A DNA stretch of 64,000 bases, from the NCBI RefSeq assembly GCF_015644585.1, contig NZ_JADOBI010000005.1:372001-436000 (forward strand), in the 5' to 3' direction. How positions within the stretch are numbered: the first letter of the stretch is position 1; the number at the start of each line of letters is the position of its first letter. The position numbers were made by a program, and so were the translations under genes. Positions 1 through 57,678 of the stretch are shown piece after piece. The DNA comes from Rahnella laticis. GTDB taxonomy: Bacteria; Pseudomonadota; Gammaproteobacteria; Enterobacterales; Enterobacteriaceae. Below the pieces are notes generated by a model that worked only from the letters and a program-made list of their open reading frames with translations, did no database searches and had not been told where the DNA came from.

Positions 1-14
1 GCTATACGCATCAT
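1..14 (-). CDS. htpX: HtpX membrane protease, first codons only
   Basis: Only the first codons, reading MMRI, are in the window; the rest lies beyond the left edge. The start fits HtpX, a membrane zinc metalloprotease of the envelope stress response, whose N-terminus begins MMRIALFLL in enterobacteria. A strong ribosome site (GAGGAAG on the minus strand, positions 24-30) precedes it. htpX directly follows prc in E. coli on the same strand, which supports the call. The 14 bases alone would not prove it. Confidence 0.7.
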
Positions 15-23465: not shown

Positions 23466-23880
23466 TTATTAATGTTATTTAGATCAATAATTTAAATTCA
23501 TAATTGGCGATGGAGTGGCGGCGAGCTTTTTAACGCTGATTAGTAAACACTAATCTCAATCATAATTTCAGGGGGTTGCCTTAATCTGCACTCTCAATCA
23601 CATGCCATTTTCTACCATACAAAGCTGCAGGTGTTGTAACACAGCTGCAATGGTTGGTGGAAATGATTTTGTTTTTTAATCATAGAGAAACTGGTTACTC
23701 TGACAGGCGCAAGGTGGTGTATCCGTGGCACTTATTGTAGTTGCATGAAAACAACCACAGATAACTGGCGTGTCGGAGATATAGCTCTCGCTTAAGTTAA
23801 AATATCTTGAGTAAATGATAATAAAATGTATTTTAGAACTGCATAGCAAAACGTAACAACTCATAAGGATAATGATTATA
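23466..23880. other. Left prophage edge, non-coding
   Basis: About 400 bp between attL and the ParA-like gene. It contains an inverted repeat GATTAG-N6-CTAATC (23538-23543 with 23550-23555) that might be an arm-type or regulator site. I see no gene in it. Confidence 0.5.
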
Positions 23881-24807
23881 ATGCAAATTGTTTCTATTAT
23901 AAACTATAAAGGTGGAGTTGGTAAAACAACTGTTACTTCTAATTTGGCTGCTGAATTAGCATTCAGAGGCAAGAATGTTTTAGTTTTGGATATGGATGCT
24001 CAAGCAAGTCTCACGTTTTCTTTCTTAACTCCGGACTACTGGGATGAGCATCTGAAAAATGATAGGACTATTAAGAATTGGTTTGATTGTATAAGTCAAG
24101 GTGAACAAACTATGCCGCTTTCAACTCTTCGGATAAGACCCGATGAGGTAAATAGCAGCCTTGGAAGAAAAGGGGGTTGTCTGGATTTGATATCCTCTCA
24201 CCTTGGACTAATAAATGTTGATCTTGAGCTTGCAACTTTACTTGGGGGTGCAAGCCCAAGTCAGACTCAAAAAAAATATCTTAAAGTCCATGGAAAACTT
24301 AGAGAAGAGCTTCAGATTTTAGCTAAAGAAATGAGTTACGACATCGTTCTTATTGATTGCCCTCCTAATTTCAATATAGTCACTAAGAATGCGCTAATTG
24401 CTTCGGACAAAATTCTAATACCAGCTAAACCTGATTACCTATCAACACTAGGCATAGACTATTTGAAGAGAAGTGTTGATTCTTTGGTAACTGATTATAA
24501 TTTTTATGCTGATAAAGATGAAGATTATGGAAGAGTTTCTCCTGAAATACTTGGCGTAGTTTTTACTATGATCCAAATCCATTCAGAACAACCTATTGCT
24601 GCACAAAGGCAATATATTGCACAAACTAAACGCCTGCGCGTTCCCGTATTTAATTCTATTTTCAGAGAAAATAAAAGCATTTTTGCTGATGCTCCTAGAG
24701 ATGGGATTCCAGTTGTATTAAATGTTTATTCAAACTCAACACACTCATCAATTGTTGGGGAGATAGAAGAGTTTGTAGATGAATTCCTTCTGAAGATTGG
24801 AGAATGA
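23881..24807 (+). CDS. ParA-like partition ATPase
   Basis: The 308-residue protein is a Walker-type ATPase of the ParA/MinD family. It has the deviant Walker A KGGVGKTT (residues 10-17), A' motif VLDMDAQAS and Walker B DIVLIDCPP. There is no N-terminal DNA-binding domain. I chose ATG 23881 because the AAGGA site is 11 bp away; the ATG at 23872 would be only 2 bp from it. Such ATPases move plasmids or other cargo on the nucleoid. Here it is in a prophage, next to attL, with no obvious ParB. AT-rich composition marks it as cargo. Confidence 0.88.
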   Translation: MQIVSIINYKGGVGKTTVTSNLAAELAFRGKNVLVLDMDAQASLTFSFLTPDYWDEHLKNDRTIKNWFDCISQGEQTMPLSTLRIRPDEVNSSLGRKGGCLDLISSHLGLINVDLELATLLGGASPSQTQKKYLKVHGKLREELQILAKEMSYDIVLIDCPPNFNIVTKNALIASDKILIPAKPDYLSTLGIDYLKRSVDSLVTDYNFYADKDEDYGRVSPEILGVVFTMIQIHSEQPIAAQRQYIAQTKRLRVPVFNSIFRENKSIFADAPRDGIPVVLNVYSNSTHSSIVGEIEEFVDEFLLKIGE

Positions 24808-25205
24808 AAGTGAGTAAAGCTAAAACATTAACTTCACTTTTTCGTGAGCTGCAAGATGCCGTTCTTGAGCTTAGTGATGGAGAATTAGAAAAAGTTATCT
24901 CCGGTGAGTTTCAGTTTTCATTAAAGATTGTTAAAAAGAAAAATATTAATAACTCAAAGGCAAGTTTGATTGACAATTTCAGTTATGATAAATTGCTTGA
25001 TTTACTCAACAAATGTGATTCCAGAGAACAAGGTAATGAGTTATTATCCAGGGAGTTAAACACGAAGTCTGAATATGAGAAGTTCGCTCGTCACGTTGAA
25101 GTTGCTGTGATGAAAAGCGATAAAGTCGATAAAATAAGAGATAATATTATTGAGTCAACTGTCGGAGCAAAACTTCGCTCTGATGCTATTCAGAATAAAA
25201 ATTAA
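24804..25205 (+). CDS. Small partner of the ParA-like protein, unknown function
   Basis: The 133-residue protein starts within the ParA stop codon (ATGA), so the two are coupled and probably work together. It is charged and predicted helical (ELQDAVLELSDGELEKVISGEFQFSLKIVKKK), with no CxxC, HTH or membrane signature that I recognise. By position it could be the adaptor that links ParA to its cargo or a centromere-binding protein. That is inference. Confidence 0.65.
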   Translation: MKVSKAKTLTSLFRELQDAVLELSDGELEKVISGEFQFSLKIVKKKNINNSKASLIDNFSYDKLLDLLNKCDSREQGNELLSRELNTKSEYEKFARHVEVAVMKSDKVDKIRDNIIESTVGAKLRSDAIQNKN

Positions 25206-25211
25206 ATAAAT

Positions 25212-25236
25212 GCCGCCCCAAAAGGCGGCCATTTTT
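25212..25236 (+). terminator. Terminator after the ParA operon
   Basis: GCCGCC (25212-25217) pairs with GGCGGC (25224-25229) around a CCAAAA loop, followed by CATTTTT. Confidence 0.8.
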
Positions 25237-25480
25237 ACCCTCCTGAGGAAGTCATATTATTTACTTTCACTTGATGCTACATCACTATGTTTTTATGTTC
25301 GACCTATCCTTTAGTTGAGATGACTTTCGTCACAGTATAGTGAGTTAACCCATAAAGATTACAGCCTTTCATACAACCTCGTAAAAACCAATCAATAAAA
25401 ATGTGAATTTTATTGAAAAAAAAAGAAATTACAAAATTAGAATTTACCGCACAATAAAAACACAAGGACAATGAATTAAT

Positions 25481-26593
25481 ATGTTAGAAAAAATAAAAGT
25501 GTTTTTTTCAAGGAGCGAACCTTCAAATCTGCACAGCGCAATTTCCGAGAAAATAACAAAGGAAATAGACCCTGAGCCTTTACTCTCCTCCCAAGCTAAA
25601 GTAAATACCCAGCATAATGTTATTCATCAAAACGAGAGCTTTTTAATATATTTAACTTCCACTAATGATTTAGGATGGAAGTTAAATAACATACCGGATA
25701 AAACTCTACTTGCATTGAGGGAATTCATTTTTATTAATGGTCTAATTGGATTGCACATGAATAGATTAAATAAAAAAAGCGCCTCTATTTTTTTAGCTAA
25801 TAGATTATATTATTGCCTTACCACAAAAGAACAATATGATGCAGTGCTGATATTTAAGGAAGTCAAGGACTATGTCAACAGTTTCGTAGGTTCCATCAAG
25901 AAAAGAGTAATAGAGACCCCTCGATTCTCTGTATATTTAAGCCGTAATAATAATATTGATTGGTGGTATTACCAAGACATACCTGAGTACATGGTCGATG
26001 CATTAGAAGAATTTGAGGTGTTGAAAGAATTATCAACAACTACCTTGCCGCAATCCTATAAATATATTGTCATGAATAAGCTAGCTTCCGCCTTAGCAAA
26101 CGCATTCAACAAAGATACAAATGAAAAAGCAAAAGATTGCTTTAGAGATGTTAGAAAATTTTTGATATCTAAGTCAGAGTCATTCTTGAAATTAAAGCTT
26201 TTCTTAATTAGCATATCATTCTCTCTTCTTTCACTAATCACTGTCATCTTTTTATGCATCTATTTGCCTAGCGCTAAAATATATGCGATGGGGATAGGGG
26301 CCGGAGTTATCGGAGCAATGGTTTCCAGCCTTCAAAGAAATAGCTTTATTTCACTTGATAGTTACGCTGGTGAATATAGCTTATACTGCGAGAGCTTTTC
26401 AAGGATAATTATAGGAGCAGTTTTTGGATGTTTCTTAGTGTTTGGAATTAAATCTGAAATATTTTTAGCTCCTTTCAAATCTAATTTGCACGCGATCATA
26501 TGCTTTTGCTTTATTTCTGGATTCGTTGAAAGATTCGTTCCTGAGCTTATTAATAGTGTAGTGAAAAAAAATGAACAAGGTAGTCAATCATGA
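25481..26593 (+). CDS. Predicted membrane protein, prophage cargo
   Basis: The 370-residue protein is not recognised as a named family. It has a soluble N-terminal half of about 230 residues, with two similar segments (FLIYLTSTNDLGWKLNNIPD and FSVYLSRNNNIDWWYYQDIPE) suggesting an internal repeat, followed by about four membrane helices. Between the helices is the glycine-rich stretch GAGVIGAMVSSLQR. It is AT-rich, with an AAGGACA ribosome site and its own spacer of about 275 bp. The location beside attL and CI fits a lysogenic-conversion gene (superinfection exclusion or defence effector), unproven. Confidence 0.7.
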   Translation: MLEKIKVFFSRSEPSNLHSAISEKITKEIDPEPLLSSQAKVNTQHNVIHQNESFLIYLTSTNDLGWKLNNIPDKTLLALREFIFINGLIGLHMNRLNKKSASIFLANRLYYCLTTKEQYDAVLIFKEVKDYVNSFVGSIKKRVIETPRFSVYLSRNNNIDWWYYQDIPEYMVDALEEFEVLKELSTTTLPQSYKYIVMNKLASALANAFNKDTNEKAKDCFRDVRKFLISKSESFLKLKLFLISISFSLLSLITVIFLCIYLPSAKIYAMGIGAGVIGAMVSSLQRNSFISLDSYAGEYSLYCESFSRIIIGAVFGCFLVFGIKSEIFLAPFKSNLHAIICFCFISGFVERFVPELINSVVKKNEQGSQS

Positions 26594-26720: not shown

Positions 26721-27587
26721 CTATAAGGCATTTTTCAAAATAAGAACTACCAATCCTTTTACTATCACTTCATTTGTTAAACATTCAAACTCTCCATCAC
26801 TTCCTACAATTCTAAGTTTATTACCAGGACGTTTAGATACTGCGTAAACATCCAAAGCACCATCGATATCTAACAGCCATGACCCATTTGATAGTTGGTT
26901 AACACCCATCTCAATCACCCATGCTGATTTTCCACTACGTACGTAGTTGAGGCTGTTGAAATTGGCCCCCTGAGGAACAAATGACTCATCGATATAGCAA
27001 AAACCGTCATCATCAAGTTTGCCAGCAAGAAGTATTTTTTTTGGGATTGATGGTGTTCCTGAGATTGCTGATTCTTCCTGAGACTCGGTATTCATCTCAC
27101 CAGTAGCGAGCCATTCCAGTGAGGCGCCAGTATCTAATGCGCAGGTAATCACTACATCGCCAGGAAAATATTCCCTACGAAACCATGTACTAATCGTTCC
27201 TGTAGAAATCTCTAAATATTCACCTAATTCTTTCTGAGTCGTAAAACCGTAAGCATCCATAATTCGCTTAAGAACTGCCTTTCCACCCGTAGATAACATT
27301 TTTTTTAATAATGATTTTCCACGATCAGTTCTCAAACCTCTTGAAACATAAGTTTTTTTAAAATTTGCATTTGCAAACACACCATTAACTAACCAGCTGA
27401 GATCTGCACCGGTATCTAATGCGCATTTAATGATGGCGTTTCCTGGAACGCTACCTCTCTGCATCCAGGCGCTCACATTTCCCGCAGGTATCTCAAGGCA
27501 CACAGCTAGTTCTTTCTGTGTTGTCACTCCATAAGAGGAAGACAAACGTTCAAGTACTTCAGATGCGTTAGGTTTAGATTCAGACAT
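26721..27587 (-). CDS. cI: CI-type repressor with duplicated HTH domain
   Basis: This lysogeny repressor of the 186 CI family (Bac_CI_repr) has 288 residues instead of about 190-200. Two copies of the N-terminal helix-turn-helix domain are present: residues 11-69 (VLERLSSSYGVTTQKELAVCLEIP...CALDTGADLSWLVNG) and 105-163 (VLKRIMDAYGFTTQKELGEYLEIS...CALDTGASLEWLATG). A 186-like C-terminal oligomerisation domain follows (GSWLLDIDGALDVYAVSKRPGNKLRIVGSDGEFEC). It lacks the Ser-Lys of LexA-type autocleavage as far as I can see, so induction probably needs an antirepressor. It is divergent from the Cox-like gene. Confidence 0.92.
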   Translation of the reverse strand: MSESKPNASEVLERLSSSYGVTTQKELAVCLEIPAGNVSAWMQRGSVPGNAIIKCALDTGADLSWLVNGVFANANFKKTYVSRGLRTDRGKSLLKKMLSTGGKAVLKRIMDAYGFTTQKELGEYLEISTGTISTWFRREYFPGDVVITCALDTGASLEWLATGEMNTESQEESAISGTPSIPKKILLAGKLDDDGFCYIDESFVPQGANFNSLNYVRSGKSAWVIEMGVNQLSNGSWLLDIDGALDVYAVSKRPGNKLRIVGSDGEFECLTNEVIVKGLVVLILKNAL

Positions 27588-27701
27588 TGCTCACCTTAAA
27601 AACACAAAAGCATTTTACAAATCTACGTTTGTATTCTAAAGTGTCAACACACCACATGTTACACAGTAGAACTCAAACTGCTTAAAAGGAGATTTTGCTT
27701 T
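27588..27701. promoter_or_regulatory. cI/cox divergent control region
   Basis: On the minus strand TTGACA (27642-27647) and TAGATT (27620-27625), spaced by 16 bp, form a good sigma-70 promoter for cI. Overlapping its -10 is a perfect palindrome TACAAA-N6-TTTGTA (27616-27633), a strong candidate operator. The rightward promoter is not clear by eye. An AAGGAG ribosome site precedes the gene at 27702. Confidence 0.7.
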
Positions 27702-28118
27702 ATGTCTGATCAGAATGCAATTCAAGTGCCTGTTGATAAGACAGTCGTTTCTAAGGAACTGTTAAACTCAGTAGTTTCGCAGCTCCTTCCAGCATTAGAG
27801 TCAGCCCTGTCTGCAACTATCGTGAACTCAATAAGTTTGCAACTGACCACCCTCGCTAACTCCCCAACAATTTCTAAGAAAGATTTTGCTGCAATCAACG
27901 GCATCAGCTCCGCAGTGCTAGAAAAGTGGATCGCCAACGGCGTAGTCCTGCTTGCACCAACTCCTACAACTACGATCACGCAACAACGTAAAAATCGCAA
28001 AACAGGTCAAATGCAAACTTTTGTGATGGAACGTCATGGCAATGCGCTGATCAACCTCGAAGCTTGGCGTCAGAAGAATCGTCAGCAAGCCATCAAGTGC
28101 CGATACATAAAGCCTTGA
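27702..28118 (+). CDS. Cox/Apl-like phage regulator
   Basis: The 138-residue protein is in the cox position of P2 (apl of 186). Cox/Apl proteins repress the lysogenic promoter and act as excisionase. A helix-turn-helix of the excisionase type is visible at about residues 55-80 (TISKKDFAAINGISSAVLEKWIANG), followed by NALINLEAWRQKNRQQAI, which resembles Cox endings. The N-terminal 50 residues (repeated Ser/Leu, ALESALSATIV) are an extension not usual in P2 Cox. Confidence 0.75.
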   Translation: MSDQNAIQVPVDKTVVSKELLNSVVSQLLPALESALSATIVNSISLQLTTLANSPTISKKDFAAINGISSAVLEKWIANGVVLLAPTPTTTITQQRKNRKTGQMQTFVMERHGNALINLEAWRQKNRQQAIKCRYIKP

Positions 28119-28149
28119 GTCAGAATATTCAAACAAGTAGGGACTAACA

Positions 28150-28656
28150 ATGTTTGATTATCGTGTTTCCAAACACTATCACTTTGACGATGCATGCAAG
28201 GCTTTTGTGAATCGTCATAATCTCACCGAACTTGCAGCTCAGATGGGCACTAAGCCACAAATCCTGCGCAATAAATTTAATCCGGCACAACCTCACAAAC
28301 TCACTTGCGAGGAACTTTTGTTGATAACCGATCTCACCGAAGACGCTGCATTGCTCGACGGTATGCTGGCACAAATTAACTGCTTGCCCTCTGTACCCGT
28401 CAATGAAATCGCAACATCTAATCTTTCGACTTACGCGCTACAAGCAACCGCTGCCGTAGGTTCAATCGCTGCAGATGCGGTAAAGGGCGGAACAGTCAGC
28501 TCACAAAGAAAAATGTCACTTCTGGCAGGCGTGAACGCCGGTATCCGACATTTATCGCTGATCGGTCTGGTTGTACAAGGCCGAGTACATGCATCACCGG
28601 CTCTGGCGTCTGCAGTGGGCGCTATCGCGAACGTGACGACTAACGGACTGCTGTAA
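28150..28656 (+). CDS. cII: Phage regulatory protein CII
   Basis: The 168-residue protein matches the 186-type CII (Phage_CP76) family, which activates establishment of lysogeny from the leftward promoter. Visible are FVNRHNLTELAAQMGTKPQILRNKFNPAQPHKLTCEELLLITDLTED (HTH region) and a C-terminal Ala- and Gly-rich helical region that in relatives oligomerises. It is the second gene of the early rightward operon. Confidence 0.88.
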   Translation: MFDYRVSKHYHFDDACKAFVNRHNLTELAAQMGTKPQILRNKFNPAQPHKLTCEELLLITDLTEDAALLDGMLAQINCLPSVPVNEIATSNLSTYALQATAAVGSIAADAVKGGTVSSQRKMSLLAGVNAGIRHLSLIGLVVQGRVHASPALASAVGAIANVTTNGLL

Positions 28657-29711: not shown

Positions 29712-29791
29712 TAATTCTCTCGATAGCGTTGTTCATTCTGGCCGGCATTAATGCTGGCTATCTGATCACTGATATCAAAGATGGTCTGTAA
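29708..29791 (+). CDS. 27-residue predicted membrane peptide
   Basis: This very short ORF overlaps the previous stop (ATGA) and the start of the replication gene (TAATG). The product is a single hydrophobic helix (MIILSIALFILAGINAGYLI) with a short polar tail. The perfect overlap at both ends argues that it is translated. Confidence 0.55.
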   Translation: MIILSIALFILAGINAGYLITDIKDGL

Positions 29792-32046
29792 TGCTGACCA
29801 GCCGTTTTAATCCTCACACTGGAACGCCCGACGTATGGGCGTTCCCCTGGAATAAACCCCTCACCCCGATCGTGCCTCAAGAAAGACCGAGACCGTTTAC
29901 CCGTGATGAATACCATCAGGGGCAAGCCGTTTTAATCAGAGTAAAAAGTCTCTCGAAGGATCTGCGTGAAATCTTCACTGGCCGTTACGCACACCTGCTT
30001 AATACCCAGGGGATTATCGCTGCCTACAAATACCTGATTTACACTCTGGGGCGCAGCATCCTGCCGCGTGTTGATGCAGTTAATTCAGCTCACACAATGA
30101 ATGCTGATGCCTCCATGAGATTCATGTCAGAGGCAGATACCTATCACGGGCTGCCGAGCATGACTGATAAGCCACTGCGCAGGTTTGCTCAGGACATCGC
30201 GCGACAACTCAGAGACATCTATGAAGAACGTTGCGAACAGTTGCTAACTCAATACCACGGTGATAACGCGATTCTTTTTGATCGTGATACGCAGTGTGAA
30301 CTTTATGGCGAAATCGCGGGTATGGCTCAGGCCTTCAATGTCAGGCCGATGCACTGGACAAGGTACCTCAAGGACAAGCTTGATACTGTCTCCGCCATAG
30401 CTGGCCTGTCTCGCTTGGTTAATCCTGAATGGTGGCTAAGTCAGCTCAAAGGTCAGCGAACCCGCTGGCGTGAATCTTTGCTGATCGCAATAGGCAAGGT
30501 AAACCGCGACGCCTCTCCCTATGCCAGTAAGCAGGCGATACGTGAAGTGCGTGCACGCCGCCTGTCGAATCTCGACTACCTGAAAAGCTGCGACCTTGAA
30601 AACGTCGAAACCGGCGAGCGCATTAGTCTAATCGATAAGGTAATGGCGAGCATCTCCAATCCTGAGATCCGCCGTATGGAACTGATGAGCACCATAGCCG
30701 GTACCGAAAAATATGCTGCGGCAAATGGCGATGTCGGCATGTTTTTGACGATCACTACCCCGTCCAAATATCACCCGACGCGCATTGTTGGCAAAGACGA
30801 TAAAAAGCGCGTTCAGCGCAATCATGCGTGGGCCAAAGAAGCCTATACACCGAAAGATGCGCAGCGATACCTTTGCGGGATCTGGAGCAAAATGCGCACC
30901 GCTTTCAAAGATAGCGGTCTGTCCGTTTACGGGATGCGCGTTGTCGAACCTCACCACGACGCGACGCCGCACTGGCACATGATGCTATTCACCAAACCCG
31001 CCATGCGTCAGCCGGTGATCGATATCATGCGCAAATATGCCATGAAAGAAGACGGCGACGAACGCGGTGCAGCAAAGAACCGTTTTGACTGTAAGCACCT
31101 GAACCGTGGCGGCGCTGCTGGCTACATCGCTAAATATATTGCGAAGAATATCGATGGCTACGCACTGGAAGGCGAGCGTGATCACGAAACCGGCGAGTTG
31201 CTGACAGACTCCGCTGCCGCTGTTACTGCCTGGGCTTCTACCTGGCGTATCCCGCAGTTTCACCCTATCGGTCTGCCAACGATGGGTTCATATCGCGAGT
31301 GTCGCCGTATCCGTTCCATCAGCCTGACCGAAACCTTCGACGAAGAAGTCGAAGCCGTACGCGCAGCTGCTGATGCCGGTGATTTTATGGCGTACATGGA
31401 GGCTCAAGGCGGCGCGAATGTTCCGCGTGAAGATCAGACCGTTCGTGTAGCTCGTCGGGTTGCTGCTGAACTGAACGCCTACGACGAAGAAGTGAAAAAG
31501 GTTGTCGGCATTTTTGCCTCGCACCTGGGCAACTCTCGTGTTTATGAAACCCGCACAACCCAATGGCGCATCGTTTCTTCCGCCGTTGACCTTGAGGTTT
31601 TGACCTCAAAAAGCGCCCACGGCGCGCCTCGGAGTCCTGTCAATAACTGTGGGTTAGGTGGAAAGAAAAAGGCTACAAATTGGCGTGATAGCCAGGCTGG
31701 GAACGCGCCTACAGCGTCTAATTCTCTCAGCCTGCGAGTTATTGACTGGACAGACACAGCCGCCGTGAGGGCGATTGTGGCGCGTATAAGGGAGGAAACA
31801 CCGAGAGTCAGCAAGGCGCAGCGAAGTTTTGACCCAACAAAGGGGCGCGATGTTGCCCCATCAGCAAGATTGACCGCTGAAGAACGGGCGCGATTGCCTC
31901 GGATTGAACAGGAATTGCTTAAAAAAGATATCAAAGCACAAAGATGGGAGCTGGAAGCATTAACCCGGGGAGCCAAAATCAGTTTTGGTGACGTTGTGAT
32001 CCATCATCCTCCTCTTATGGACTGGCAGGAATTTTATGAAGACTAA
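29791..32046 (+). CDS. A: Replication initiator endonuclease gpA
   Basis: gpA nicks the phage origin and starts rolling-circle replication. The 751-residue protein matches the Phage_GPA family. The HUH-like segment PHHDATPHWHMMLFTKP and the two active tyrosines in GYIAKYIAKNIDG (Y445 and Y449, spaced YxxxY) are present. In P2 the origin lies inside this gene, and the same is expected here. It is the last long gene before cos. Confidence 0.95.
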   Translation: MLTSRFNPHTGTPDVWAFPWNKPLTPIVPQERPRPFTRDEYHQGQAVLIRVKSLSKDLREIFTGRYAHLLNTQGIIAAYKYLIYTLGRSILPRVDAVNSAHTMNADASMRFMSEADTYHGLPSMTDKPLRRFAQDIARQLRDIYEERCEQLLTQYHGDNAILFDRDTQCELYGEIAGMAQAFNVRPMHWTRYLKDKLDTVSAIAGLSRLVNPEWWLSQLKGQRTRWRESLLIAIGKVNRDASPYASKQAIREVRARRLSNLDYLKSCDLENVETGERISLIDKVMASISNPEIRRMELMSTIAGTEKYAAANGDVGMFLTITTPSKYHPTRIVGKDDKKRVQRNHAWAKEAYTPKDAQRYLCGIWSKMRTAFKDSGLSVYGMRVVEPHHDATPHWHMMLFTKPAMRQPVIDIMRKYAMKEDGDERGAAKNRFDCKHLNRGGAAGYIAKYIAKNIDGYALEGERDHETGELLTDSAAAVTAWASTWRIPQFHPIGLPTMGSYRECRRIRSISLTETFDEEVEAVRAAADAGDFMAYMEAQGGANVPREDQTVRVARRVAAELNAYDEEVKKVVGIFASHLGNSRVYETRTTQWRIVSSAVDLEVLTSKSAHGAPRSPVNNCGLGGKKKATNWRDSQAGNAPTASNSLSLRVIDWTDTAAVRAIVARIREETPRVSKAQRSFDPTKGRDVAPSARLTAEERARLPRIEQELLKKDIKAQRWELEALTRGAKISFGDVVIHHPPLMDWQEFYED

Positions 32047-33459: not shown

Positions 33460-34703
33460 TTCAAATTACCTTTTGTAGCTTCAAACAAATCGTACGTTAA
33501 TTCCCATTTATTATCAATGATTTGTGGTGAGTGGGTGGCAATAATATATTTAGATGATTTGTTTATTTTTTGAATTTTCTTTAATGAATTAAGGAATTCC
33601 TTTTGCCATGCAACATGTAATGAAATTTCAGGCTCATCAATTAATATAACATTTTTATCTTTACTATTGAATATTAAATCAAATAATATTACGACTTGAT
33701 TCTGCTCTCCAGATGAAAGCATATTTCGATCAATTACATCTCCTATATCACTTACAAAAATAAAACCTTCCTGCCTATCAAATTTAACTTTTTTAAATGA
33801 AAGTATTTTTTCCTTCAGTAAGGTGGAGAAGAGATCAATCCTACTAAATAATGATTCAAATGGAGCGAGTTTCTCAAGCCCGTCATCTATATATAATTTT
33901 AGTACATTAAGGTATTCATTATTTTTAATTACATGAGTTGTATTTGAAGGAAGCAGGTCGATCTCAGAATCAATGAGCCCATAACCCATGTATAACTTTC
34001 TCTTATCCTGTATGCCAATTAGTCGATCGCTTATATTACCATACGCGGCTAATTGAGAATCCGCTATCATATCAAAGAGTCTTGAGGGAAATGTTGTATC
34101 AAGCCGTTGACTTATTTTTGCTGACTCACTAGTAGCCAGTTCCATTAACTGTATTAGTTTTAAAGCATAATCATCAATAACTGTATTTTTGCTCTCTTTG
34201 GTTTCAAGTCGCTGTGCTTTTATAAAAGTGACCCCTTCGCTTGAAAAAAATTTATCCAAAACATTGGAAGTATATTTTGATTTTGAATCAGTGTGTTCAT
34301 CTTTAACTACACTACCATCTTTAGCCCAAAATTTTATGTAAAAGTTTTGTTTTAATAAGTCTTCGTTATTGCAATCTAGCTTTTCAGGAGCGTCTTTGTA
34401 ATAAATTTTCTCCTCATACCTAGAAGAACCTTCAGTAACAATTAAAGTGATTGATTTTTTTTTGGTCTTTATTGTTTTGGAAATTTCAATTTCAGCAACA
34501 TCTGTACTTAAAATAATATTTTCGAACTTCAATTTCTCGAAAATAGTTAAATCATTTATTAATATATCCTTTATTATCCTTAATAAAATTGTTTTACCAT
34601 AGCCATTTGGACCCGTGAGAATAGTAAACTCATGATTATCCAAAGGAATGTTATAATCCAACATTCCAAACAATCCGTTGACCTTTAGTCTAATTAAATT
34701 CAT
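33456..34703 (-). CDS. ABC-type ATPase (AriA-like) of a PARIS-type pair
   Basis: The 415-residue protein is an AAA_15/SMC-like ATPase: Walker A TGPNGYGKT (about residues 31-38), signature LSSGEQNQ, Walker B KNVILIDEPEISLH and H-loop ATHSPQII. Between them is a long insert in place of a coiled coil. ATG 34703 is chosen, with GAGG just upstream. Paired with DUF4435 it resembles AriA, which sequesters the effector. An OLD-like or Gabija-like system is less likely because the partner is DUF4435 and there is no TOPRIM fused to the ATPase. Confidence 0.78.
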   Translation of the reverse strand: MNLIRLKVNGLFGMLDYNIPLDNHEFTILTGPNGYGKTILLRIIKDILINDLTIFEKLKFENIILSTDVAEIEISKTIKTKKKSITLIVTEGSSRYEEKIYYKDAPEKLDCNNEDLLKQNFYIKFWAKDGSVVKDEHTDSKSKYTSNVLDKFFSSEGVTFIKAQRLETKESKNTVIDDYALKLIQLMELATSESAKISQRLDTTFPSRLFDMIADSQLAAYGNISDRLIGIQDKRKLYMGYGLIDSEIDLLPSNTTHVIKNNEYLNVLKLYIDDGLEKLAPFESLFSRIDLFSTLLKEKILSFKKVKFDRQEGFIFVSDIGDVIDRNMLSSGEQNQVVILFDLIFNSKDKNVILIDEPEISLHVAWQKEFLNSLKKIQKINKSSKYIIATHSPQIIDNKWELTYDLFEATKGNLK

Positions 34704-55644: not shown

Positions 55645-55785
55645 AAATAATCCTTCATCATAATCCAGACATACGTAGAGTAAGACGCTGAAAAATATAT
55701 GTAAATCACTGTAATATCAGATGTATGTTTCCGGCCATAACATACAATGATCGCAACTGATTAAAGTGATTACATGGTGATTATT

Positions 55786-56007
55786 ATGATGCACTGCCCG
55801 AAATGCCAGCACGCAGCACACGCCCGTTCCAGCCGTTATCTGAGCATCAATACTAAAGAACGTTACCACCAGTGCCAGAATATCAATTGCAGCTGCACGC
55901 TTAAAACGCATGAGTCGATTGCGGACATCATCGTCGAGCCAGGTACAGTTCACGCTGTGCAGTTGCACCCGGACAAGCATCAGCAACAATCTTTGCAGAT
56001 GCATTAA
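55786..56007 (+). CDS. ogr: Late transcription activator Ogr
   Basis: The 73-residue zinc-finger activator of the Ogr/Delta family has HCPKCQHAAHARSSRY, then a Lys-Glu-Arg-Tyr-His segment, then CQNINCSCTLKTHESI and GTVHAVQLHPD. The C2-C2 zinc motif CxxC...CxxxxC contacts RNA polymerase alpha and the late sites. I chose ATG 55786 because it aligns with the P2 start MFHCP; upstream ATG 55774 is also possible. It turns on P, O, V and FI. Confidence 0.93.
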   Translation: MMHCPKCQHAAHARSSRYLSINTKERYHQCQNINCSCTLKTHESIADIIVEPGTVHAVQLHPDKHQQQSLQMH

Positions 56008-56413: not shown

Positions 56414-56622
56414 CATTAAGTCCTTATAGTGAAAGCAAACTGTTAAGACCAATCTTAACAATCTGGAATCAAAATTTCACGATTTCTGCCGCAACCTTTC
56501 CAAAAGATACTGCTTAGACAAATAGACCGGTTGCTGCCATTGCATGTATAAGACTGACTAAATCAAACATTTACACTGGTTTTATATACAGTAGAATTCA
56601 CATTCTCAAAAAGGAGAATGTG

Positions 56623-57678
56623 ATGAGTGTAAGAAAGCTGTCTACAGGCAAATGGTTATGCGAGTGCTACCCGAACGGGCGCGAAGGTAAGCGGTGCCGC
56701 AGGCAGTTTGATTCCAAGGGTGAGGCCTTAGCCTTTGAGACTTACACCATGGATCAGGCAAAGAACAAACCCTGGCTTGGTGAGAAGGAAGACCGGCGGA
56801 AGCTGAGCGAACTGGTCGAACTCTGGTACAGCCTGCACGGCTGTTCTCTGAATGATAAAAAGGGACGACTGGGCAAACTAAGGATTATCAGCGCGGGTAT
56901 GGGTGACCCGATAGCCAGCATGATCACACCGAAGGACTGGGCGCATTATCGTGATCAGCGCCTGCGCGGTGAAATCGATAACGGCTACAGTACCAGTCTG
57001 GCTACCAGGAAGGTTTCAACCGGTACGGTGAACTGCGAGCACGCTTTCTTACGGGCGGTGTTCAATGAGCTGAAACGCCTGGGGGAATGGTCGTTGCCTA
57101 ACCCGCTGGAGAATATCCGCGAGTTCGACCAGCCGGAACGTGAAATGGCATGGCTGACTCAGGAACAAATTTTGCAGCTCATGGCAGCTTGTGAGCAGCA
57201 TGGAAATGACGAATTAACGCTTATCGTTAAAGTCTGCCTTTCAACCGGCGCACGCTGGAACGAGGCGGCAAAAATCAAAAGCTCGCAGATTTCTCCCTAT
57301 AAACTCACCTTCATCAATACCAAAGGTAAAAAGAACCGTACCGTTCCCCTCACCCGCCCTATCTACGACGAATTGATCGCCCGTAAAGGCACGCCCTTCT
57401 CACCCTGCTATAAGCAGTTTTATCGGGTGATCAGGCTGGCCGGCATCGAGCTGCCTGAAGGTCAGATGACGCACGTTCTGCGGCACACGTTCGCCAGTCA
57501 TTTCATGATGGCGGGTGGCAACATTATCGTGTTGCAGCGCATCCTCGGGCACTCAGATATCCGGGTCACTATGCGATACGCGCACTTTGCTCCGGATCAC
57601 CTGGAAGACGCTATCCACCTGAATCCGTTGGCTCAAATCAGTGGCGATAAAATGGCGATGGAGAATCCAAATGAGTAA
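56623..57678 (+). CDS. int: Tyrosine integrase
   Basis: The 351-residue P2-type integrase has catalytic residues Arg211 (STGARWNEA), His284 and Arg287 (THVLRHTFASH), His310 (LGHSD) and Tyr319 (MRYAHF). The arm-binding N-terminus is MSVRKLSTGKWLCECYPNGREGKRCRR. AAGGAG precedes the ATG. It reads toward attR, 58 bp away. In P2 the integrase is on the CI side of the attachment site, whereas here it is on the ogr side. Confidence 0.95.
   Translation: MSVRKLSTGKWLCECYPNGREGKRCRRQFDSKGEALAFETYTMDQAKNKPWLGEKEDRRKLSELVELWYSLHGCSLNDKKGRLGKLRIISAGMGDPIASMITPKDWAHYRDQRLRGEIDNGYSTSLATRKVSTGTVNCEHAFLRAVFNELKRLGEWSLPNPLENIREFDQPEREMAWLTQEQILQLMAACEQHGNDELTLIVKVCLSTGARWNEAAKIKSSQISPYKLTFINTKGKKNRTVPLTRPIYDELIARKGTPFSPCYKQFYRVIRLAGIELPEGQMTHVLRHTFASHFMMAGGNIIVLQRILGHSDIRVTMRYAHFAPDHLEDAIHLNPLAQISGDKMAMENPNE

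Follow-up and report, generated by a model that had tools for sequence, protein, structure and literature searches.

The CI repressor encoded by a prophage of Rahnella laticis carries two DNA-binding heads in one chain, which raises the question of what a second head is for. The 186 CI binds pR and the flanking sites FL and FR, FR binding represses pE, and five operators are involved (PMC7708051); pR and pL of 186 are convergent (PMC6593788), and the 186-type C-domain is reported to form a 14-mer wheel (PMC8053113). We analyzed a stretch of 64,000 nucleotides, here called the window, together with related loci from phages and bacterial genomes. On the evidence of the sequence comparisons, the window CI is probably a 186-type repressor whose two DNA-binding heads do different jobs.

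Architecture of the two-headed CI

The cI gene, identified as an ORF and by Pfam, lies on the reverse strand at 26721..27587 and encodes 288 residues. Its product matches PF07022 with 147.7 bits over two stretches (cut-off 22) and PF16452 with 55.9 bits (cut-off 27). All three domains are coded on the reverse strand: head 1 (residues 11-69; 27381..27557; PF07022), which is variable and is the putative reader of the pR operators; head 2 (residues 105-163; 27099..27275; PF07022), which is the most conserved domain; and the C-terminal oligomerisation domain (residues 181-277; 26757..27047; PF16452), which matches 2fkd.

The first-pass annotation of this DNA had read two DNA-binding units in the chain, and this stands: there are two PF07022 domains, identical at 32 of 59 places (54%), and both are folded in the model. 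Structure prediction, which it had named as a check, places a recognition helix in each head, at residues 35-44 and 129-137. In this AlphaFold2 model (60-row alignment; mean pLDDT 82.9, pTM 0.42), each head has a five-helix fold, residues 72-86 are of low confidence, and a long helix (residues 83-100) precedes head 2. The best solved structure match of the window CI is the 186 CI (2fjr), and its predicted C-domain matches 2fkd with a TMt of 0.90. The protein thus has the 186-type traits, a PF07022 head and a PF16452 domain with the 2fkd fold, and departs from the rule of one head per chain in 186 as a two-headed variant. It fits the PSP3 type, which has two PF07022 heads in tandem and a head 1 within the head-1 clade.

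The BLOSUM62 local score between the two window heads is 173, compared with a mean of 21 and a maximum of 57 in 2000 shuffles. The DNA coding for them is identical at 104 of 177 positions (59%), and the 14-base string GTATCTAATGCGCA that had been pointed out in both is indeed present, at 27130-27143 and 27412-27425. The same codon is used at 14 of the 32 residues common to the heads (0.44), and the two-headed genes compared average 0.40, so the DNA likeness alone is no sign of a recent copy.

Distribution and ancestry of two-headed CIs

A tblastn search found 123 phage records that match the CI, 43 of them covered to at least 80% in one place. Some CI match was present in 133 of 392 family genomes, and a near full-length two-headed gene was present in 41 of the 392 by a hand count of the matches listed; two of these genomes (G184 and G307) hold two such genes each. 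The closest named genomes are Rahnella. Two heads were counted in PSP3, RCIP0057, Midge, SI22, 613R3 and two Klebsiella phages, so the database search that had been proposed for 186 CI relatives with two helix-turn-helix units did recover PSP3 and others with the same architecture. Because other phages and genomes carry it, an assembly collapse artefact behind the double head is very unlikely. Sixteen plasmid records match the CI protein, every one below 60% identity, and no near match to the window cI DNA was found in the E. coli genome collection.

With the addition of 69 viral loci and 6 from genomes, the comparison set came to 142 genes: 115 distinct ones with two heads and 27 with one. 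Before this set was formed, L001-L005 (repeats or the own genome's weak third locus) and the frameshifted L067 were left out; L037 and L081 (separate origin) and L047, L051, L144 and L149 (broken or partial) were left out of various later counts. A tree of 128 heads, built on few columns and therefore unsure in its finer forks, places 50 head 1s, including that of the window, and the head-1 remnant L077 on one side (support 100), and 50 head 2s, 25 single heads and two Klebsiella head 1s on the other. Because head 1s are split from head 2s across the family, the duplication in the window is old, contrary to the earlier statement that it was fairly recent. The cI of L077 is itself broken: it reads head 1 and then remains of the C-domain in another frame, and head 2 was not found. 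Both heads of the two Klebsiella phages L037 and L081 nest within one single-head group (support 97), which indicates that their architecture, with its longer linker, apparently had a second, separate origin. A clear FL/FR dyad pair was sought in these two loci and not found.

The titles and abstracts of the open-licence papers surveyed contain no description of a two-headed 186-type CI, which is no proof of absence. The kind of protein is already known from database entries, and the duplication is not unique to the window but common to PSP3 and others. What appears to be new, and is absent from the same titles and abstracts, is the proposed split of tasks between the heads and the predicted operator within the gene.

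The pR operator follows head 1

The lytic promoter pR was assigned by consensus match on the forward strand at 27614..27642, with a -35 element TTTACA (27614-27619), a 17-bp spacer and a -10 element TAAAGT (27637-27642). The operator-like DNA present here, judged from the letters alone, includes the dyad TACAAA-N6-TTTGTA in the pR spacer at 27616..27633, an exact palindrome, which the first-pass annotation had named, and a probable head-1 operator. A further half-site, CACAAA (27603..27608), lies 13 bp from the left arm of the dyad and reads TACAAA in L083-L085, in which the arms of the dyad are kept and the loop bases altered. One other place in the window, at 33460, is within one mismatch of the dyad (shuffled mean 0.17). 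The centre of the dyad is unsure and differs by 4 bp from the centre most often seen in the other head-1 groups, and a single dyad centre common to all head-1 groups is weakly supported.

A strict pattern found pR in 96 of the 115 two-headed loci, with six left out first. In most loci the 17-bp spacer of the lytic-direction promoter is filled with operator-like DNA, often with a second copy after it. Self-likeness of the pR stretch in two-headed loci peaks at 21 bp (z 3.2), with a smaller peak at 23 bp (z 2.1); single-headed loci also show a signal of their own (22 bp, z 2.6), and tandem sites at pR therefore do not distinguish two-headed loci. On the cI strand, the last four bases of the pR -35 element are TAAA in 95 of 97 two-headed loci and TCAA in 6 of the 9 single-headed loci that the same pattern recovered.

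Loci that share a head-1 helix type have similar operators, even where head 2 and the C-domain differ, and each of the helix types IPANNISGW, VPSNNVSAW and IAKSNVASW has the same operator in Rahnella-type and other loci. In partial Mantel tests on 53/63 aligned proteins, operator distance was associated with head 1 given head 2 and the C-terminal domain (CTD) (r 0.59, P 0.001), and the values were r 0.07 (P 0.08) for head 2 and r -0.01 (P 0.63) for the CTD. With the rest of head 1, head 2 and the CTD controlled for, recognition helix 1 gave r 0.52 (P 0.001), compared with r 0.22 (P 0.001) for the rest of head 1 and r 0.02 (P 0.32) for recognition helix 2. The head-1 residues most telling for the operator were 40, 36, 35 and 39, within the recognition helix. 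Some linkage exists, because the rest of head 1 is associated with both the operator (0.22) and the apl side (0.28). Mere neighbourhood is nevertheless insufficient as the sole cause: the association of helix 1 was 0.47 and 0.38 at the two pR stretches, compared with 0.12 in the 5' UTR, a stretch closer to head 1 than pR is, and -0.04 on the apl side. Locus pairs with a near-identical backbone differ in head 1 and in the operator. On the best reading, head 1 sets immunity, i.e., which phages are silenced. The role in immunity specificity first supposed for the two-headed CI is thus supported, in that pR operator DNA tracks the head-1 recognition helix.

In many loci, the DNA separating pR from the first lytic gene has conserved stretches of few types with short direct repeats (for example, GTGCAT twice, 10 bp apart). 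These are perhaps sites of the first lytic protein; Apl of 186 binds direct repeats between pR and pL (PMC7498355). The stretch was considered as a head-2 target and rejected, since by eye it comes in several sequence types while head 2 is alike.

A predicted head-2 operator in the linker codons

Mean pairwise identity is 0.78 for head 2, 0.58 for head 1 and 0.41 for the CTD, and the recognition helix of head 2 is among the best-kept parts of the CI. The predicted operator of head 2 is CTTGCAWWTGCAAG. This is the pR operator of single-headed relatives that share the helix of head 2, and in two-headed phages it is located inside the cI linker codons, upstream of cII and, in the case of five named phages, upstream of the late-activator gene. 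For the distal dyad scans, 105 two-headed and 23 single-headed loci were anchored. The strict dyad CTYG-N6-CRAG was present in the pR spacer of 10 of the 23 single-headed loci, all with a head-2-like helix, and in none of the 105 two-headed loci (L039 has one at +45), in which it was found instead at -497 to -473 (44 loci) and at +238 to +245 (18 loci). The nearer of these places falls within the cI linker codons and the farther one in the gap upstream of cII. Three single-headed loci with the same helix (L053, L055 and L058) have variant pR dyads, unlike CTTG-N6-CAAG.

In the window, the in-gene dyad TTTGCATTTGCAAA lies at 27364..27377, in the linker codons of residues 71-75 (FANAN), and is predicted to be an FL-like operator of head 2. 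Most linkers read like YTTGCA-NN-TGCAAR whatever the amino acids. The linker dyad was absent in five two-headed loci (L021, L023, L026, L029 and L033), and L021, which was not anchored and is outside the 105, has CTTGCTTATGCAAG close to the cI start. The leucine of the linker is coded by CTT in 47 of 51 cases, compared with 22% in the rest of the genes, and Ala72 by GCA in 95 of 98 cases, compared with 26%. Pairing of the linker dyad exceeded synonymous resampling with a z of 12.2 in 68 clusters, a value favoured by the choice of the offset on the observed sequence only. A place-free scan for synonymous constraint, with 264 five-codon frames in 55 clusters, peaked at residues 71-75 (z 7.4); the eight best of the 264 all overlap these residues, which form the one strong peak of the gene.

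The linker protein has changed while the dyad was kept in L040 (LKNL, with CTTAAAAATTTAAG) and L008 (FAFA, with TTTGCATTTGCAAA), and L036 is a further example; in Midge and RCIP0057 the linker dyad is shifted to other codons and has one mismatch. Because the dyad is kept despite the protein change, a constraint on the DNA is favoured. The linker of L083 reads FANANANANV, and its repeated GCAAAT units multiply the in-gene dyad.

Dyads before cII and before the late-activator gene

A dyad of the same kind, TAACTTGATTTTGCAAGTT, occupies the gap upstream of cII, where the first lytic gene has its stop codon. The cII start was obtained for 84 of the 105 two-headed and 11 of the 23 single-headed loci. 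The dyad was found with at most two mismatches in 34 of 50 distinct two-headed stretches (mean 2.34, compared with 6.67 after base shuffling; L034 and L035, read at a wrong cII start in this count, both do carry it) and in 1 of 11 single-headed stretches (mean 4.73, compared with 6.61). Single-headed 186-type loci mostly have a different, TTCG-type dyad before cII. The arms CTTG become CTTA when head-2 residue 134 is not Thr, at the FR site in 4/4 versus 2/33 (P 0.0002) and at the FL site in 3/4 versus 0/45 (P 0.0002), counted on distinct combinations with rows that are few and partly related; the FL row that lacks the CTTA arm is the frameshifted L047.

The dyad before the late-activator gene (ogr) is exact in PSP3, Midge and RCIP0057 and has one mismatch in SI22 and SEN1, which makes 5/5 of the fetched named records holding that stretch; 613R3 has host genes there. 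When a matrix of single-headed pR dyads was applied to the 30,636 bp of PSP3, the pre-cII site scored best, with equal second rank for the in-gene and pre-ogr sites. Head 2, on the best reading of these data, anchors the constant flanking operators.

The window locus and its host genome

The gene order of the window is that of 186: cI, the first gene of the lytic operon (27702..28118, forward strand; 138 aa, in the place of apl, no Pfam match), cII (28150..28656, forward strand; PF06892) and replication gene A (29791-32046; PF05840). An ogr-like late-activator gene lies at 55774..56007 on the forward strand. The gap before cII (28119..28149), where many relatives have the FR-like dyad, holds none in the window, with six mismatches at best, and a good pre-cII dyad was likewise absent from nine distinct Rahnella-type stretches including that of the window (6-7 mismatches). 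A head-2-type dyad was looked for upstream of the gene at 55774 and not found, unlike in the five named phages. The window pR is thus flanked by the in-gene site, and the pre-cII site is absent. Because the window is without the pre-cII and pre-ogr dyads, head 2 may have a single phage site here, perhaps the in-gene dyad only.

The in-gene dyad is exact, and no other place in the window comes within one mismatch of it (shuffled mean 0.23); two late-gene places score higher than it when the single-headed matrix is used, which puts it third. Within the 5.73-Mb genome, YTTGCAWWTGCAAR occurs at two places only, the in-gene site of the window and the pR spacer of a single-headed prophage on contig C10, and both fall in CI switch regions; the reversed control pattern occurs at four places. 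Since these are its only places, each repressor could occupy the control DNA of the other. We tentatively raise a second immunity through head 2, a possibility to which we give somewhat less than an even chance: the pR operator of single-headed relatives would be recognised, one repressor would silence two phage groups, and the single-headed prophage of the same genome would be cross-regulated.

Downstream of cI, at 23872-26593, the window has a gene for a ParA-family ATPase together with two ORFs of 133 and 370 aa that match no Pfam family; orf28 and int occupy this place in PSP3. The ORF at 56620-57678, beside the ogr-like gene, was judged integrase-like by eye.

Other explanations of the two heads

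The constant dyads in cI, before cII and before ogr might be bound by a host factor, CII or the first lytic protein, with head 2 conserved otherwise. The pre-cII dyad does sit where 186 has its pE region, with CII acting there (PMC7708051, PMC6593788). We nevertheless consider this explanation unlikely, as single-headed relatives that share the helix have this dyad in their pR spacer, where a CI operator ordinarily lies, the arms of the dyad vary with residue 134 of head 2, and single-headed 186-type loci carry a different dyad before cII. Head 2 could instead be structural, packing or dimerising and holding DNA without reading it, and the linker codons could be kept for mRNA or translation; its near invariance while the pR operators vary would agree with this. 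Such a role is rather improbable, given that the recognition helix of head 2 is among its best-kept parts, that the linker dyad outlasts amino-acid change (L008, L040 and L036), and that the dyad recurs outside the gene, before cII and ogr.

The model, with two heads of one fold on what appears to be a flexible linker, and the many imperfect pR dyads could also suit a built-in dimer, in which heads 1 and 2 of one chain each take one half-site of a composite pR operator. Neither pR stretch tracks head 2 given head 1 and the CTD (r 0.04, P 0.22; r 0.07, P 0.08), so that one composite operator read by both heads is unsupported by the partial Mantel tests, and we regard the arrangement as very improbable. 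A recent neutral tandem duplication with a redundant second copy, in keeping with the 14-base string in common and the 54% identity of the heads, is hardly credible: the head tree, which separates head 1 from head 2 family-wide, contradicts it unless gene conversion was widespread, head 2 is the most conserved domain, and the heads share codons at about the mean rate of the family. What the data favour is a pair of heads with different targets, head 1 probably on the pR operators and head 2 probably on constant sites at a distance. The first-pass annotation had proposed that two heads per monomer could bridge operators or loop DNA with fewer subunits, and heads with different targets would still allow this.

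Proposed mechanism

If the two heads do have different targets, CI multimers would hold pR through head 1 and the FL-like in-gene site through head 2 at once, and head 2 would also hold two further sites where these are present, the FR-like one upstream of cII and that upstream of the late-activator gene. Simultaneous head-1 and head-2 contacts would bridge or loop the switch region; that is, we infer the multimer state, the binding and the looping of the two-headed CI. The layout of 186 would recur here with a division of labour, head 1 at pR and head 2 at the constant sites. Repression of the late-activator promoter is a further function of the 186 CI.

A stretch of about 250 bp covers both head 1 and its operators, and the two could be exchanged together, which would change immunity; joint exchange is suggested because pairs with a near-identical backbone differ in both. 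Head 2 and its scattered sites would stay fixed while head 1 changes, and a plausible reason for two heads is that sites scattered over the genome need an unchanging reader. If this is true, the repressor can change immunity freely and control of the scattered constant sites is not lost. The protein would then be a natural bispecific DNA-bridging protein, with an operator written into the linker codons of its own gene, and tests of 186-type looping could draw on two DNA specificities that are separable within a single protein.

Comparison with known systems

The CI of Salmonella phage PSP3 (AY135486, 286 aa) and its Eganvirus kin likewise has two heads and a C-domain, in the same gene order. 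It is about 50% identical to the window CI and has another head-1 helix and another pR operator. PSP3 has the in-gene, pre-cII and pre-ogr dyads, whereas the window has the in-gene dyad only; PSP3 also carries tumA/tumB.

The CI of coliphage 186 (2fjr, 2fkd) shares the head and C-domain families with the window CI, and 186 resembles the two-headed phages in having pR and the flanking CI sites FL and FR, with FR acting on pE (PMC7708051). In contrast, the 186 CI has one head per chain (189 residues in 2fjr), which must serve all its operators. The second prophage of the same genome (C10, L063) has a single-headed CI with a head like head 2 of the window, and its pR dyad, CTTGCATTTGCAAG, has the same 12-base core as the in-gene dyad of the window; unlike in the window CI, its lone head must itself read pR.

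The lambda-186 hybrid repressor (7jvt; PMC8053113) also has a 186-type C-domain bearing DNA-binding heads, but it is described as engineered and with one head type. The nearest published idea among the papers surveyed is the two-domain repressor of the cluster A phage TipsytheTRex (PMC9283540), which likewise has two DNA-binding domains in one chain, with the more variable of the two proposed to set immunity. That repressor is described as a monomer with two unlike domains, both on one asymmetric site (PMC9283540), and the cluster A combination of a helix-turn-helix with an unlike stoperator domain differs from the window CI, in which both heads are PF07022.
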